From NCBI GenBank assembly GCA_030430155.1, contig JAUIFV010000020.1, positions 1 through 41,731 on the forward strand: a DNA stretch of 41,731 bases, in the 5' to 3' direction. Of this stretch, positions 21,222-36,529 are shown one piece after another; positions within the stretch are counted from its first letter, which is position 1; every line of letters starts with the position of its first letter. Made by a program: the position numbers and the translations under genes. A model generated the notes under the pieces. The model worked only from the letters and a program-made list of their open reading frames with translations. It searched no databases and was not told where the DNA came from. The DNA is from Gammaproteobacteria bacterium. Its GTDB lineage: Bacteria; Pseudomonadota; Gammaproteobacteria; Xanthomonadales; SZUA-5.

Positions 21222-22061
21222 CTACGCGCCCATCCTCGGCTCGGATGCGCCAAGGCGTGATTCAGACTTGGCCAGCAACCGCTCCACTGCAACGCTGGCG
21301 GCCAGCATTCCGAAGCTCGCCGTCACCATCGTCGACGCACCCAGTCCGCCCTCGCAACCCAGCTTGCCGTCTGCACCGGCCTGCGGCCGCAGCCCGCAAA
21401 CGCTGCCGTCGGGCTGCGGATAGCGCACGTTTTCCAGCGAGTAGATCGCCGGAATGCCGAAATAGCGGTCCTTGTTGCGTGGAAAGCCGTGATCGGCACG
21501 CAGCTTCTTGCGTACCAGCGCCAGCAGTGCATCGTGCTCGGTGCGCGACAAATCACGCTTGCGCACCAGGGCCGGGTCGATGCGGCCGCCGGCCGACCCC
21601 ACCACCACCAGGTCCTGCTTGTTACGGCGGCAATAGGCGACGGTTTCCACCTTGACCCTGAAGGCGTCGGCGGCGTCGATGACCAGATCCCAGGACAGGC
21701 CCAGCCAGCGCTCCAGGGTGCTGGGGGTCAGAAAGCTGGCATGGGCCTCAATCTGCGCGGCAGGGTTGATCTGCTGCAGACGCTCGGCAAGCACCTCGGC
21801 CTTGCCGCGACCGATAGTGCTGCTCAGCGCCTGCAGCTGCCGATTGGTGTTGGTCAGGCAAATCTCGTCGCCGTCGAGCAATCCCAGCCGCCCGACCGCG
21901 CTACGCGCCAGCGCCTCGGCGGTCCACGAACCGACCCCGCCCAACCCCACCACCAGCACGCTGCAGCGAGACAGCCGGTCTACGCTGCCGACGCCGTAGA
22001 GGCGGTCAATGCCGGCGAAGCGGGGGTCGGTGCCTGAGGTTGGCGGGCTGAGGTCGTTCAC
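21222..22061 (-). CDS. tcdA: tRNA threonylcarbamoyladenosine dehydratase
   Basis: TcdA (CsdL/YgdL) uses ATP to cyclise t6A37 to ct6A in tRNAs that read ANN codons. It belongs to the E1/ThiF/MoeB superfamily. The 279-residue protein has the nucleotide-binding loop VLVVGLGGVGSWTAEALARS, then LLDGDEICLTNTNRQ. The distal catalytic segment includes GSVCGLRPQAGADGKLGCEGG and ASTMVTASFGMLAA, typical of TcdA rather than ThiF. The start is a GTG at 22061. No strong ribosome binding site is seen before it. Upstream is a heptamer-repeat element and then the CheX-like gene. Confidence 0.92.
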   Translation of the reverse strand: MNDLSPPTSGTDPRFAGIDRLYGVGSVDRLSRCSVLVVGLGGVGSWTAEALARSAVGRLGLLDGDEICLTNTNRQLQALSSTIGRGKAEVLAERLQQINPAAQIEAHASFLTPSTLERWLGLSWDLVIDAADAFRVKVETVAYCRRNKQDLVVVGSAGGRIDPALVRKRDLSRTEHDALLALVRKKLRADHGFPRNKDRYFGIPAIYSLENVRYPQPDGSVCGLRPQAGADGKLGCEGGLGASTMVTASFGMLAASVAVERLLAKSESRLGASEPRMGA

Positions 22062-22103
22062 GGCGTTGCGGCAATCTTCGTGTTCGGGTGGCGTTGTCGA
22101 TAA

Positions 22104-22197
22104 GGGCCCAGGGCCCAGGGCTCAGGGCCCAGGAGGTCAAGAGCGCGCGGACCCAGCTCCTCTGGGCCCTGGGCCCTGAGCCCTGAGCCCTGAGCCC
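22104..22197. repeat. Inverted arrays of a 7-bp GGGCCCA-type repeat
   Basis: Two short tandem arrays face each other. The left array has four 7-bp units: GGGCCCA at 22104 and 22111, GGGCTCA at 22118, GGGCCCA at 22125. The right array has five units on the other strand: TGGGCCC at 22163 and 22170, TGAGCCC at 22177, 22184 and 22191. Both contain the same T/C variant, and the arrays could pair into a long G+C-rich hairpin with a loop of about 31 bases. The element fills the gap between the cheX-like stop and the tcdA start. A related array sits at 36502-36529. I cannot assign it to a named family. Confidence 0.85.
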
Positions 22198-22204
22198 TAA
22201 TCGG

Positions 22205-22651
22205 CTAGTCGATACTAACCACCAGCGCCGCATGGTACTGGCGCCAGTGAATCGGAATAACGAAACTGCGGTCGGAGAAGCGGAAGCGGGTGTAATCCGG
22301 TTTGCCGGCGAACACGGTGGGCACCGAGATGATGAACTCCTGACCGAACACCTTGCGCGCATTGCCGGAGATGGTATTGGCCACCTCGCCGACCACGTCA
22401 GCCATGAAGTCGCTATCGATCTGCGATTCGCCGTGGGTCATCAGGATGTGCCGCAGCATAGCGCTGGGCGCGGTGAAATAGACGCTGCCCTTGCGCACCC
22501 CGGAGATGCCGATCACCCCGGTGTAGTCCGACGAAATGCGTTGCTTGTCCTCGATCAGATAGGGCGTACCGACCGCGGCGGTCTTGTCCAGCGAGCGGTG
22601 GAAATAATGCACGGTGCCATCGATCAGCACCTGGATATCCTGCTCATCCAT
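22205..22651 (-). CDS. cheX: CheX-like CheY-P phosphatase
   Basis: This 148-residue protein resembles CheX/CheC-type phosphatases that dephosphorylate CheY-like receivers. The signature helix DVVGEVANTISGNARKVFG carries the E-x-x-N pair (Glu89 and Asn92) that acts on the receiver phosphate. One such motif is present, as in CheX. The ATG at 22651 is preferred. A GTG at 22660 is possible and would lengthen the overlap with the receiver gene. The gene overlaps the CheY-like gene by 8 bases and lies last in the kinase-receiver-phosphatase set, so it very likely resets the neighbouring receiver. No flagellar or MCP gene is in the window. Confidence 0.85.
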   Translation of the reverse strand: MDEQDIQVLIDGTVHYFHRSLDKTAAVGTPYLIEDKQRISSDYTGVIGISGVRKGSVYFTAPSAMLRHILMTHGESQIDSDFMADVVGEVANTISGNARKVFGQEFIISVPTVFAGKPDYTRFRFSDRSFVIPIHWRQYHAALVVSID

Positions 22652-23015
22652 GGCCGCCACCCCGCAACAGCTCGGTCAGCGAATCGTTGATCTCCTCGTC
22701 GCTGAAGGGCTTGAGCAAAAAGCCGTTGGCGCCCTGCTTGAGCGCGCGGATCGCGGTCGCTTTGTCGGCTACGGCCGAAACCACCAGGATCAGCACCTTG
22801 GGATTGAGCCGGACCATGGCGCTGGTGCAGGCAATGCCGTCCAGGCCGGGCATGGTGATGTCCATGGTGACCAGATCCGGTTCTTCCTTCTGGAACAAGC
22901 GCAGCGCCTCCATGCCGTTGGGCGCGGTGATCACGCTGTCGATCTTGTGCACCGCGACCGCTCTGGAGATGCGATTGCGGATGAAGTGGGAGTCGTCAAC
23001 GACCAGCAGCTTCAT
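22644..23015 (-). CDS. CheY-like single-domain response regulator
   Basis: This 123-residue receiver has no output domain. It shows the acidic pair Asp7-Asp8 (LLVVDDSHFIR), the phosphorylation site Asp52 (TMDITMPGLDG), the Ser/Thr switch in LVVSAVAD, and the conserved Lys in FLLKPFSDEEI. It therefore looks fully active. The ATG at 23015 overlaps the stop of the upstream kinase by 4 bases (ATGA), and its own end overlaps cheX by 8 bases. The three proteins are almost certainly made together and form one phosphorelay. The downstream target of the receiver is not visible. Confidence 0.93.
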   Translation of the reverse strand: MKLLVVDDSHFIRNRISRAVAVHKIDSVITAPNGMEALRLFQKEEPDLVTMDITMPGLDGIACTSAMVRLNPKVLILVVSAVADKATAIRALKQGANGFLLKPFSDEEINDSLTELLRGGGHG

Positions 23016-25090
23016 GCTGACTTACCTTTGGCCGCAGCGGGATCGGTCGCCGGCAGCCGAATTCTGAACTGTGTGAACTGGCCCGGCACCGACTGCACGC
23101 CGATCCGTCCACCCAGGCGCTTGACCGAGTGCGCAACGATATCCAGCCCCACCCCGCGACCGGCGGCGTCGTCGACACCGCCGCGGGTGCTGAAGCCGGG
23201 CAGGAATATCAATCCCATCAGCTGCTTGGGATTCATCTTGGCGGCCTGATCGGGACTGAAGCGGCGGCTGGCCACGGCTTTGCGGCGCACCGTTTCCAGA
23301 TCGATGCCGCGCCCGTCATCGCGGAAGCTGAGCTCGATCTCGCCCTGATCATTCTGCGCCAGCCCATAGCGGATCTCGCCCACCGGGGTCTTCCCGGCGC
23401 GCGAACGCTCCTCGGCGCTCTCCAGGCCGTGGGCCAATGCGTTGCGCGCCAGCTGGCCGAGGATGTCATCGACCTGGCGACGCCGATCCTCCGGCAGTGA
23501 CTCGCTGGGTTGCCCTTCCAGCACCACTCTGGCCTGACGGCCCAGCTTGCTGGACAGGCCGGCCACCACGCTTTGCAAAAAGCTCGGCGGCGGCGTCTTG
23601 GGCTTGCCCTCGGCCTTGTCCGCCGGTGCGGGTGCGGTGCTGAGCTTGCTCAGCTGCTTGAGCATGCGCTCAAGCACATCGAGCTGCCCGAACAGATCCT
23701 CCAGACGCACCGCCACCGGCAGGAAGTCATTGCCTTCCAGCTGCTCTCGATCACGCAGCAGACCCAGCTCCAGCTCGGTGGCCTTGGCCCGTTGAGTGAT
23801 AAAGCCCAGACCCATCGCCGCCGCTTCGCCCTTGACCAGGTGCACCGGCCGGAACACCCGATCGATCAGCTGACGCAGGCCGCGCTCGCCGCGCGCGGAC
23901 TGCTTCAGCGACTGATTGGCTTCCTTCAGCGCCACACGCCAATGCGTCACCCGCTCCTCGATCATCTTGCGATCGGCCTTGAGCAGGCCCACCACCACCT
24001 CCATCACCCGCTCACTCTGCACGTCGCCCTCGCCGCGCAGCCGATCCAGTTCTTCGTTGAGTACCACCCGTTCGGTGATATCGGTCACCGTCACCAGCAG
24101 CCGCACCACCTTGCCCTTGACCCGCATGCGGCGGAAGGCGAAGTCGAGGAAGCGACGCCCTCGGCTGTCGTCGTCTTCGCCGCCAATCTGCACTTGATCC
24201 AGCGGATTCAGTGAGGCGATCAGGTTTTCGTTGACGCGCTCGGAGAACAGCAGCGAAACGAACTCCTTGGCGGTATCCACCGTCTCGTCAGGAAGCAGTT
24301 CCCTGAGAATGGTGACCAGGTTTCGGTCTGCCAGATCGCCGGTGCCAAACATCTGCATCAGCTGCGGCGACACCTGGTGGCCCAAGCGATAGTCCTCGTC
24401 CAGGGTGAACAAGCCCACCGGCACCGCGTCGAGCATCTCCTGAGCGTCGGTTCGTACGGTTTCCAACTCGCCCTGCTTGAGGGCGAAGATCCACAACGAC
24501 AGCGCCAGCAGAGCGGCAAACAGCAGCACCGACAGCCACAGCAACCAGCCGGCCCTGGATTCGCTGCGCTGAATCTCCTCGCTGAGCAGCTCTCGTAGCC
24601 TCAGCAGCGGGCCATCCAGGGCGGCAGTCAGCTCGGCGATCCGTCCCGCCGCGCCGCGATCAACCCGCTCGACGTCAAGCAGCGGACTGAGCTGGTCGCG
24701 CAGCTGGCTCCAGGCCTCGGCGACCACCGCGCTAGCCGGTTGGGCGCTGGCCGGCACGTCTTCCTGACGGAATACGCTGGGACCGCCGCTGGCGCTCAGA
24801 TCTCCGCCCTCCTGCAGCAGCACCACCACGGCATCGACCTGCTCGAAATCACGCTTGAAGGCGGCGCGAGTGGAGTCCAGCGCACTGAGCCCCTCGTCCA
24901 CCGGCAGTTCCAGCACCCAGCGCGGCAGCCGCTGCGCCGCCAGCTGCGCCTGCACTACGGCTTCCTGCAGGGCTTGGATGCGCTTCTCGCCGCTGCCCAT
25001 CCACCACTGTCCGGCAAGCAGCCCGACCGCAATGACGACCACCAGTGCAGTCCAAACCGGCACGCTGAGCATTCGAGCGAGACTACGCAT
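23012..25090 (-). CDS. Membrane-bound CheA-like histidine kinase (sensor-PAS-Hpt-HATPase)
   Basis: Starting at the ATG at 25090 the protein has 692 residues. The segments are: TM1 about 8-27, an extracytoplasmic helical sensor region to about 180, TM2 about 181-204, a PAS-like region with a PAC-type end (LVTVTDITERV) to about 345, and a helical linker. Then comes an Hpt-like segment with His417 in RPVHLVKGEAAAMGLGF, matching the CheA/Hpt H-x-x-K-G pattern. The last part is a CheA-type ATPase: N box LARNALAHGLE, G1 RDDGRGIDLE, F box FLPGFST, G2 GRGVGLDIV. No CheW-like P5 domain follows. A GTG at 25117 is an alternative start. It is a CheA catalytic core on a membrane sensor body. Confidence 0.88.
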   Translation of the reverse strand: MRSLARMLSVPVWTALVVVIAVGLLAGQWWMGSGEKRIQALQEAVVQAQLAAQRLPRWVLELPVDEGLSALDSTRAAFKRDFEQVDAVVVLLQEGGDLSASGGPSVFRQEDVPASAQPASAVVAEAWSQLRDQLSPLLDVERVDRGAAGRIAELTAALDGPLLRLRELLSEEIQRSESRAGWLLWLSVLLFAALLALSLWIFALKQGELETVRTDAQEMLDAVPVGLFTLDEDYRLGHQVSPQLMQMFGTGDLADRNLVTILRELLPDETVDTAKEFVSLLFSERVNENLIASLNPLDQVQIGGEDDDSRGRRFLDFAFRRMRVKGKVVRLLVTVTDITERVVLNEELDRLRGEGDVQSERVMEVVVGLLKADRKMIEERVTHWRVALKEANQSLKQSARGERGLRQLIDRVFRPVHLVKGEAAAMGLGFITQRAKATELELGLLRDREQLEGNDFLPVAVRLEDLFGQLDVLERMLKQLSKLSTAPAPADKAEGKPKTPPPSFLQSVVAGLSSKLGRQARVVLEGQPSESLPEDRRRQVDDILGQLARNALAHGLESAEERSRAGKTPVGEIRYGLAQNDQGEIELSFRDDGRGIDLETVRRKAVASRRFSPDQAAKMNPKQLMGLIFLPGFSTRGGVDDAAGRGVGLDIVAHSVKRLGGRIGVQSVPGQFTQFRIRLPATDPAAAKGKSA

Positions 25091-25330
25091 CCCTGATATT
25101 GGGCTCCCCAAGGCCACCGACGCCGACGTTACAAGACGTGTCGATGTTAAAACGCCAGCGCGCCTTCGGCCTAGCGCTTAGGTAAAGTTTTAACGATGCG
25201 TTTGCCGTTGACATACGCATACTTAGCAACACTTCTTCGATATTGACTCATCAAAGGCGCCCCACAGTGCCGAATCGCCACGCACGAGCGTGCCTACAAG
25301 GCGACAGGCGACGAGGTGAGTCCGCGCCGC
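25091..25330. promoter_or_regulatory. Upstream region of the kinase-receiver-phosphatase operon
   Basis: This 240-bp gap lies between the acyl-CoA synthetase stop and the kinase start, both on the minus strand. The part 25180-25260 is clearly AT-richer than the surroundings and is the likely promoter zone for the kinase operon. An imperfect palindrome TTGACTCATCAA (25243-25254) may be an operator. I could not find a convincing -35/-10 pair on the minus strand. Confidence 0.3.
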
Positions 25331-26965
25331 TTAGTCCAACCCCACCACCGCCGTCTTGCTGGCCAGCATGGCGGGACGGAATTTCGCTTCCAAGGGCCCC
25401 CGCAGCACTTTCAGCGTCGGAGTGGTCATCCCGTTCTGCGGACTCCAGGCCACCTTGCTGTAGCCCAAGCGGGCGATTTGCTCGTAGCGCGGGTGTCCGG
25501 CATTGACCGTCTGCAGATGCCCTTCCAGGAGCGTCCGCAGCCGCTCCGTCGGCAGCGCCATTGCCGACTCGGCCAAAACCACGATGGCCATCGGCTGATC
25601 CAATCCGTGACCGTAAACCAGCACCTGATCGATCTCGGCAAAGCCCCCGAGGCGCGCTTCCCAGGGGCCGGGATCGATGAACTTGCCCTTGCTGGTCTTG
25701 AAGGTGTCGCTGACCCGCCCGGTCAGATGCAGTCGCCCGTTGCGATCAATCCGACCCTTGTCGCCGGTGTGCAGCCAGCCGTCCTGTAGCGTCTTGGCGG
25801 TGCGCTCCGGGTCTCGGTAGTAGCCGCGCATCAGCGCCCCGCTGCGCATCAGCACCTCGCCGCCCTCGCCGATGCGAATCTCGCCTTCTCCCACCGGACT
25901 ACCGACGGCGCCAATCAGCGGTTTGGCCTCCTGGGCGATGGTCCCGTAGATGAAATTCTCGGTCATGCCGTAGCCGTCGCGGAGCACGATGCCCAAACGG
26001 CGATACCAGCGGTGCACCTCCGGCGGCGTCGGCGCCGAACCGGTGACAAAGCGCGTGGTCTGATCCAAACCCAACCCAGTGCGGATTTTCATCGCCAGTT
26101 TGGCACCCAGCAGCGGCACGCTGAGCAGTACGCGTAGCAGCAGCGGCGGGAAACGCGACTCCACCCCCTGCTTGAACTTCACCCATAGCCGAGGGACGGA
26201 GAAGAACATCGTTGGCCGGATCGCCTGCAAATCCTGCACGAAGGTCTCTTGCGACTCGACGAAGCTGACCACGGCGCCGCAGTAAAGGCTGTCCATCTCG
26301 ACAATGATGCGCTCGGCCGCGTGAGCCAACGGCAGGTAGGAAACAAAGCGATCGGTGGGTCCCATTTCCCACATCTTGCAAAAGGTAGGCACCGCATAGG
26401 CCACAGTATTGAAGTCGTGCATCACCCCTTTGGGATGGCCAGTGGTGCCGGAGGTGTACATCAGGGTGAAGACGTGATCCCCGGGTAGCTTGGGAATCTC
26501 CTCCAGACGTTCGTGCTCGGCGTAGATCCGCGGCAGATCCCAATCGCACTTGAGCGTTTGCGCACCGATGGCCACGGTGACGATACATTCGGGCAGCTGC
26601 GGCAGCCTTTCGGCCATCTCGTCGGCCAGGCCGATGAAGGCCACTTTGACCTCGGCATGCTCAAGAATGTAGTCCATGGGCTTCTTGGCCACCCCCGGGT
26701 ACAGCGGCACGCTGACGTGGCCGCTGAGCATGATCGCCATGTCGGCGATGAACCAGTCGGCGCAGTTCTTGGCGTAGATGGCCACGCGGCTGCCCGGTTC
26801 GGGACATTGCTCGGTGAGAAAGCGCGCCAAGCGCCGCACGCGATCACCATACTCGGCCCAGCTCAGGTCGATAAACTCGCCGCCGCTGCGCTGACGCAAG
26901 TAGACTTGCTCTGGATGATTGGCTTCCCAGTGCAGAAAGCGATCGATCGGTAGTTCAGCGCTCAT
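25331..26965 (-). CDS. AMP-dependent long-chain acyl-CoA synthetase-like protein
   Basis: This is a 544-residue adenylate-forming enzyme that probably activates a fatty or other carboxylic acid to an acyl-CoA via an acyl-AMP. The ATP-binding loop LMYTSGTTGHPKG is around residue 175. YGMTEN is near residue 330. TGDKGRIDRNGRLHLTGR marks the hinge, and the C-terminal region includes TPTLKVLRGPLEAKF with Lys residues near the usual catalytic position. The ATG at 26965 is chosen because a GGGGG-type site lies 4-8 bases upstream and the protein then starts at the domain boundary. The frame is open much further upstream by chance. It diverges from an AraC-family regulator that may control it. Confidence 0.92.
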   Translation of the reverse strand: MSAELPIDRFLHWEANHPEQVYLRQRSGGEFIDLSWAEYGDRVRRLARFLTEQCPEPGSRVAIYAKNCADWFIADMAIMLSGHVSVPLYPGVAKKPMDYILEHAEVKVAFIGLADEMAERLPQLPECIVTVAIGAQTLKCDWDLPRIYAEHERLEEIPKLPGDHVFTLMYTSGTTGHPKGVMHDFNTVAYAVPTFCKMWEMGPTDRFVSYLPLAHAAERIIVEMDSLYCGAVVSFVESQETFVQDLQAIRPTMFFSVPRLWVKFKQGVESRFPPLLLRVLLSVPLLGAKLAMKIRTGLGLDQTTRFVTGSAPTPPEVHRWYRRLGIVLRDGYGMTENFIYGTIAQEAKPLIGAVGSPVGEGEIRIGEGGEVLMRSGALMRGYYRDPERTAKTLQDGWLHTGDKGRIDRNGRLHLTGRVSDTFKTSKGKFIDPGPWEARLGGFAEIDQVLVYGHGLDQPMAIVVLAESAMALPTERLRTLLEGHLQTVNAGHPRYEQIARLGYSKVAWSPQNGMTTPTLKVLRGPLEAKFRPAMLASKTAVVGLD

Positions 26966-36501: not shown

Positions 36502-36529
36502 TGGGCCCCGTGCCCTGGGCCCTGGGCCC
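36502..36529. repeat. Short array of the 7-bp TGGGCCC-type repeat
   Basis: Four consecutive 7-bp units, TGGGCCC (36502), CGTGCCC (36509), TGGGCCC (36516) and TGGGCCC (36523), followed by the pyrimidine-rich TCCTCCTTC, lie in the aroK-aroB gap. The unit is the same as in the inverted arrays at 22104-22197. Here only one orientation is present, so no self-hairpin forms from the array alone, although GGGCCC is itself palindromic. Confidence 0.75.

Follow-up and report, generated by a model that had tools for sequence, protein, structure and literature searches.

The window analysed here, the whole of a 41,731-nucleotide stretch of contig JAUIFV010000020.1 from a gammaproteobacterium (GenBank assembly GCA_030430155.1; GTDB: Xanthomonadales, SZUA-5), encodes on its minus strand a trio of genes for a membrane sensor kinase, a stand-alone CheY-like receiver and a predicted CheX-type phosphatase. 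From sequence comparisons and structural models, we propose that these genes form a self-contained two-component circuit with catalytic parts of the chemotaxis type, a reading to which we give a probability of about 0.75. Other gammaproteobacteria carry this gene trio as well, and it therefore has the look of a small signalling circuit that is complete in itself. The preliminary description of this locus, made from the letters alone, had reported a kinase overlapping a receiver-only gene and a CheX-like gene with an E-x-x-N motif, and ORF (open reading frame) coordinates, Pfam matches and codon inspection agree with it (Table 1): neighbouring genes overlap, the end of the kinase gene and the start of the receiver gene sharing 4 nt and the end of the receiver gene and the ATG of cheX sharing 8 nt. 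This ATG, at position 22651, is the start found in most aligned relatives, and an alternative GTG at 22660 gives the longer form of CheX reported earlier.

The window kinase is composed, in this order, of a transmembrane helix, a presumed periplasmic domain, a second transmembrane helix, a PAS domain, a histidine phosphotransfer (Hpt) domain with His417 and a CheA-type P4 ATPase domain; the transmembrane helices were placed from hydrophobic runs. Pfam matches HATPase_c at 1.3e-13 and both Hpt and PAS_4 at 0.0039. The CheA character of the ATPase is indicated by two CheA models of NCBIfam, scoring 136 and 98 bits as against 34 bits for the best other kinase model, by phmmer comparison with solved structures, in which CheA aligns with residues 506-682 at 2.1e-29 and the best non-CheA kinase reaches 1.7e-6, and by a fold search with VIA-align that returned CheA chains at Z 18-21. 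The AlphaFold model of the kinase, made with 24 sequences (mean predicted local distance difference test, pLDDT, 78.8; predicted template modelling score, pTM, 0.40), has long helices that hold both hydrophobic runs, a PAS-like alpha/beta domain, a group of four helices with His417 in the second, and the P4 domain. The Pfam scans and the model thus bear out the earlier account of a two-transmembrane sensor with PAS, CheA-type Hpt and ATPase and no P5 domain, and His417, for which a four-helix Hpt bundle had been expected, is placed by the model in such a region (residues 374-484). The fold-search rows cover mainly residues 414-684, and no Hpt entry is among the 50 rows listed, residues 373-475 matching a designed bundle and a repeat-protein fusion (Z 13.7); because these listed four-helix entries are all non-Hpt, the Hpt identity rests on Pfam, the H-x-x-K-[GS] motif and the helix pattern. 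Pfam Hpt is matched at E 0.01 in 23 of the 24 family kinases chosen for alignment, over which residue conservation was also counted: H417, K420, N550, D591, G593, G595, G644, G646 and G648 are invariant in all 24.

Neither P3 nor P5, which in CheA accompany the P1 and P4 domains, was detected in the kinase family. By Pfam, a CheW (P5) domain is found in 0/24 family kinases and in 12/12 control CheAs from trio genomes, and an H-kinase_dim (P3) domain in 0/24 and 11/12, respectively, two of the latter being under the Pfam cut-off. In the window model, the gap between Hpt and P4 is about 20 low-confidence residues, too few to hold a two-helix P3, and the chain ends 10 residues beyond P4. The absence of P5 is the firmer of the two. 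A HisKA/DHp domain was likewise found in none of the 24 kinases at E 0.01, and in one of seven at E 0.014 in another scan. In a survey of 13,673 CheA proteins, P1, P3, P4 and P5 are described as present in all and as the core (PMC10782961); as P3 and P5 were not detected, the kinase is not a CheA by the definition given there. The apparent absence of P3, together with the wide distribution of the trio and the PilJ/NarX-type sensor of some relatives, goes beyond the preliminary description.

That description had also proposed a phylogeny of the ATPase against CheA, and the tree made here places it outside the sampled CheAs. When 44 P4 domains were placed in a tree by maximum likelihood, a branch with support of 100/98 split off 12 CheA rows, all of which carry CheW by Pfam and with which Escherichia coli CheA groups; on the opposite side are 30 trio kinases and two unlinked kinases. 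This tree is unrooted and its sampling of CheA is small, and 15 of the original 59 rows were dropped before it was made, 14 of them duplicating genes in the set and one (L117) not. Because the 12 CheA P4 domains from trio genomes all lie on one side of the branch, the trio kinases do not appear to be recent local losses from those CheAs. Rooting with PhoR, NarX, KdpD and another kinase was not reliable, since the long branches came together and the backbone lacked resolution; no direction is claimed, and the tree is compatible both with a loss of P3 and P5 and with their never having been present. The two unlinked kinases, L129 and L130 (genomes G314 and G409), have a CheA-type P4 and no CheW domain, and no Pfam Hpt at E 0.01.

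The receiver is a single domain in which the active-site residues are present and no output domain follows; D7, D8, D52, S80 and K102 are invariant in 28/28 aligned sequences. The CheX domain (PF13690) is above the Pfam cut-off at 1.3e-17. Its motif is kept among the aligned relatives, with the Asn in 27/27 and the Glu in 26/27, L062 having Asp instead. A single-sequence structure model of CheX (pLDDT 36.8) was discarded.

A scan of 84,980 species genomes with patterns based on a CheX alignment, which detects only relatives holding the patterns, led to 49 loci in named records, and in 46 of them kinase, receiver and CheX are on one strand, an arrangement beyond chance. Partial kinase ORFs occur among these 46 (L029, L033, L046 and L047). 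The three exceptions are L045 and L066, where CheX is at the contig start, and L063, which has a kinase and CheX and no receiver match; L066 and L067, on separate contigs of the same bin, are possibly the halves of one gene. The 49 loci are not independent, because many are metagenome bins of apparently close kinship. Some CheX match was found in 30 genomes of a sample of 369 from the class and exceeded 130 bits in 12, including the window's own; in the other 11 of these 12, all 13 loci above 130 bits are trios, although the kinase of L098 is split across two frames. Thus the synteny of kinase, CheY and CheX that the preliminary description had suggested searching for is widespread. The remaining 18 class-sample genomes have weak CheX matches only, and in three that were inspected no such kinase was seen in the stretch inspected, one of the contigs being 4.2 kb. 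Among close relatives every CheX-bearing locus is a trio (6/6, the same six being counted within the 49), and in a sample from the phylum matches above 100 bits are found in 2 of 378 genomes.

Individual loci stand out in several ways. One (L065) is from a bin labelled Opitutaceae. At L063 (5036-7441), CheX adjoins the kinase with no receiver match between them, and in Rappaport israeli (L029, 5853-7462) the kinase is cut to 230-260 residues, most of PAS and Hpt being gone. G145 has two tandem trios (L107, 4849-13431) with an extra CheX and two paralogues, P0005 and P0006, which are 48% identical; each follows a CheX gene and has no Pfam match at E 0.01, and both are candidate receiver partners. 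At L101 (7113-8354), an ORF for a fusion of a receiver and a Ser/Thr protein kinase starts a few bases past the trio cheX on the same strand, and at L100 (7167-8978) a 604-residue ORF with a TonB C-terminal domain, whose start is uncertain, overlaps the end of cheX.

The sensor part of the kinase varies within the family. The PilJ family of Pfam, to which the sensor of NarQ belongs according to PMC6381276, is matched at E 0.01 in four of 24 family kinases, and the window kinase gives no match to the PilJ model at E up to 1. The same article defines the nitrate N-box as [IVL]-[ND]-x-A-G-x-Q-R-M-L-[ST]-Q (PMC6381276). This box occurs exactly in seven of 63 kinase ORFs (L056 of Cellvibrionaceae, L064 of Hahella sp. 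CCB-MM4, L098, L102, L103, L104 and L110). Among the 63 are ORFs that have no sensor region, namely at least L029, L046, L047 and the second half of L098. Two more kinase ORFs hold nine of the 10 fixed positions, while 1,260 shuffled N-terminal parts reach a maximum of seven. The window kinase has four of the 10, which is the commonest value among the shuffles, and its aligned site (from residue 42 on) has diverged. At L110 (2-9148), a trio with the exact N-box adjoins a PP2C/Ser-Thr kinase gene, beyond which are genes for a NarK-family transporter (340.8 bits; cut-off 311.7) and NirB (928 bits; cut-off 578). These sequences suggest that nitrogen-oxide sensing was the starting point in part of the kinase family, the link to nitrate genes being found at one locus.

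Based on these results and on what is established for CheA and CheX, we propose that a signal received at the periplasmic helical domain, the PAS domain or both would shift the packing of the cytoplasmic helices, and that this packing would control whether the CheA-type P4 domain phosphorylates His417 of the same chain or of a dimer partner. Because P3 seems absent, dimerisation would be mediated by the membrane and PAS helices. The phosphoryl group would then pass from His417 to Asp52 of the receiver, both of which are conserved, and CheX, by means of its E-x-x-N motif, may remove it, so that the receiver could serve as a fast reversible switch. As the receiver has no output domain, it presumably acts by binding another protein. 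That its target is a component of the type IV pilus or of the Pil-Chp system is a guess without statistical support that we hold to be somewhat unlikely, some other partner accounting for the rest.

The trio is apparently apart from the chemotaxis-type genes of its own genome. The preliminary description had noted that it lacks MCP (methyl-accepting chemotaxis protein), CheW, CheR and CheB, and had treated a CheW or MCP encoded nearby as the finding that would speak against it. A family-level search found no match to CheW, MCP or CheB on the window's contig; CheR, which this search did not include, was tested by tblastn on the window only, where the best match of the genome's CheR has E 0.29. 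Searches of the window by tblastn with the CheR, CheB, CheW and PilJ parts of the genome and with CheW and Tar of E. coli gave nothing better than E 0.2. The genome's two CheW, one MCP and one CheB matches all lie elsewhere, on C222 and C128: C222 carries two receivers, CheW, an MCP with a PilJ sensor, CheR and an Hpt ORF that runs into the contig end, and C128 carries CheB and CheW. Judged from sequence, these genes look like a Pil-Chp-like set. The earlier account of the trio was therefore sustained on this point; that it is a stand-alone switch is what we infer, and cross-talk with Pil-Chp is possible.

Genome-wide comparisons point to no particular output. No match to FliM was found in the genome of the window (G000; assembly 96.6% complete), which makes the flagellar switch an unlikely target of the receiver there, and FliM is found in seven of 17 trio genomes and, in the class sample, in six of 12 trio genomes versus 189 of 369, which is the background level; a flagellar output was set aside as unlikely for this genome. 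A PilT-family protein is over the cut-off in 17/17 trio genomes. Within the class sample the counts are 12/12 versus 309/369 (P 0.11), and since so many genomes of the class have PilT-family proteins, their presence says little about the output; the co-occurrence with type IV pili was not counted as evidence. No conserved output neighbour emerged among the 40 largest ORF clusters listed, of which only two include the window. These two span nearly every locus and were taken as the trio and its antisense frames, while the others, among the members listed, fall within L030-L068, which are apparently mostly closely related bins. As this comparison comprised ORF lists for 19 loci and annotation for a chosen few, a rare linked target could escape it.

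Several points weigh against a self-contained circuit. All of its support consists of sequence and models; the Hpt and PAS_4 matches of the window kinase fall under Pfam's own cut-offs, and with a pTM of 0.40 for the whole kinase, the packing of its domains is not established by the model. HMMER often misses P3, as noted in the CheA survey cited above (PMC10782961), and for this reason the absence of P3 rests also on how closely P4 follows Hpt in the model of the window kinase. The trio is patchy, being found in six of 61 relatives including the window's genome, and PilT-family proteins are not significantly commoner in trio genomes. The locus with kinase and CheX and no receiver is a misfit with a strict three-part circuit, and so is that of Rappaport israeli, where receiver and CheX remain open despite the shortened kinase.

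Other readings would tie the trio to a known system. The trio could be an accessory arm of Pil-Chp, in which the kinase provides an extra input and PilG/PilH or ChpA have in the receiver and CheX either a second donor or a sink for phosphate. A Pil-Chp-like set is indeed present in the same genome, PilT is found in every trio genome, and in some lineages the trio sensor matches PilJ, the family also matched by the MCP of Pil-Chp; but the enrichment of PilT is not significant, a partial look at the annotated trio neighbours revealed no recognisable pil-chp gene, and the identity of the receiver with the two beside the PilJ of the genome is only 27-30%, so that we consider such an arm unlikely. 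The exact and near-exact N-boxes, which exceed all shuffles, and the NarK and NirB genes near L110 would fit a kinase family on a nitrate-type sensor, whose receiver controls nitrogen oxide metabolism through a partner and whose copy in the window has drifted to another ligand. This link is seen at one locus only, and the window kinase resembles shuffled sequences at the N-box and has no PilJ match, which leaves this reading rather doubtful. With stand-alone receivers known to serve as phosphate sinks in other systems, the Hpt could donate mainly to other response regulators of the cell, the linked receiver and CheX being a phosphate drain; the recurrence of the three genes together speaks for the linked receiver as the main partner and makes this improbable.

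Two further readings concern descent. The CheA-type P4, the truncated copy of Rappaport israeli and the split kinase of L098 might be taken to mean that the kinase is a decaying remnant of a CheA that has lost P3 and P5. This view is disfavoured, and we consider it highly improbable, as the active-site residues are invariant in all the aligned kinases, the trio is kept across wide divergence and the CheA P4 domains from trio genomes lie on one side of the branch in the tree. Because the trio ATPases lie beside and not inside the sampled CheA group, the trio could instead be a distinct chemosensory-like family with the receptor and a CheA-type kinase in one protein, possibly from a nitrate-sensing ancestor and possibly near the form from which CheA gained P3 and P5, although we regard this as quite unlikely. 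A self-contained circuit with chemotaxis-type catalytic parts thus remains our preferred reading of the trio.

Around the trio, the window encodes a ThiF-family protein (by Pfam) and an AMP-ligase-like ORF, the latter judged by reading the ORF list. No sigma-70-like promoter was found in 21900-25500. A long stable hairpin lies between cheX and the ThiF-family gene and is possibly a transcription end or a repeat element; it is built of GGGCCCTGAGCCC-like repeats, and related units with three mismatches are found at 36503-36528.

Table 1. Features of the kinase-receiver-CheX locus, in positions of the window; boundaries of the transmembrane helices are approximate.
Feature	Position	Strand	Basis
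Membrane sensor kinase gene, 692 aa from ATG (701 aa from GTG at 25117)	23012..25090	-	ORF; Pfam; trio in relatives
First transmembrane helix, residues ~12-31	24998..25057	-	Hydrophobic run
Presumed periplasmic domain, residues ~32-181	24548..24997	-	Mostly helical in model; position of PilJ/NarX-type sensor in some relatives
Second transmembrane helix, residues ~182-204	24479..24547	-	Hydrophobic run
PAS-like domain, residues 220-342	24065..24433	-	Pfam PAS_4 E 0.0039, under Pfam cut-off; strands and helices in model
Hpt four-helix region, residues 374-484	23639..23971	-	Helices 374-396, 402-425, 429-446, 453-484; Pfam Hpt
His417 codon, H-x-x-K-[GS] motif	23840..23842	-	His and Lys invariant in 24/24
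CheA-type P4 ATPase, residues 503-682	23045..23584	-	CheA P4 chains Z 18-21; phmmer 2.1e-29 to solved CheA; invariant residues 24/24
Stand-alone CheY-like receiver gene, 123 aa	22644..23015	-	Pfam Response_reg 7.9e-28
Asp52 codon, predicted phosphoacceptor	22860..22862	-	Codon inspection; residue conservation
Predicted CheX-type phosphatase gene, 148 aa from ATG at 22651	22205..22651	-	Pfam CheX 1.3e-17; profile match to solved CheX chains
E-x-x-N motif of CheX	22376..22387	-	Glu codon 22385-22387, Asn codon 22376-22378
Long stable hairpin between cheX and the ThiF-family gene	22105..22200	.	-91.6 kcal/mol; z -8.67; equalled by 0/200 shuffles

No description of a kinase-receiver-CheX trio was found in searches of an open-licence full-text library, which leaves out most subscription journals. 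Each part is known; what those searches did not turn up is the combination of a membrane sensor, Hpt and CheA-type P4 without detected P3 or P5, in an operon-like arrangement with genes for a receiver and CheX. This recurring family apparently functions with no core domains of CheA other than P1 and P4, which are linked directly to a membrane sensor, and it has a receiver and CheX of its own. The trio could serve as a minimal system for asking if P3, P5, CheW and receptor arrays are required at all for phosphorylation of the CheA type, and its members with an N-box offer a testable ligand, nitrate.

The window kinase shares with CheA an Hpt phosphodonor and a CheA-type P4, but its chain also contains two transmembrane helices and a PAS domain, and P3 and P5/CheW were not detected. 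A1S_2811 is a CheA/Y-like hybrid of Acinetobacter that the title of its description ties to surface motility and biofilm; it is likewise CheA-like, but is one hybrid protein with four Hpt domains, and a term count of the article's text shows no mention of CheX (PMC5635159). Pil-Chp, of the type IV pilus (Tfp) class, has in common with the trio an Hpt, receivers and, for some trio relatives, PilJ-type sensing, and both systems are present in the window's genome; however, Pil-Chp has an MCP, CheW and a CheA with a CheW domain, whereas the trio is without all of these. Some trio kinases share the PilJ-family sensor and exact N-box with NarQ/NarX and McpN, but the catalytic part of the trio is instead an Hpt and a CheA-type P4, and the window sensor has no N-box. 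In the CheX/CheC phosphatase family, which includes the solved chains 3hm4, 1xko and 6vpw, the CheX Pfam domain and the E-x-x-N motif are common to the CheX of the window. Members of this family are described as fused to the F1 CheAs of Leptospirae (PMC10782961) and, for VC0377 of Vibrio cholerae, as a CheX-family protein with an untested role (PMC8789113). The CheX of the window is encoded beside a sensor kinase and not within a chemotaxis cluster, and the trio thus provides an example of CheX away from chemotaxis genes.

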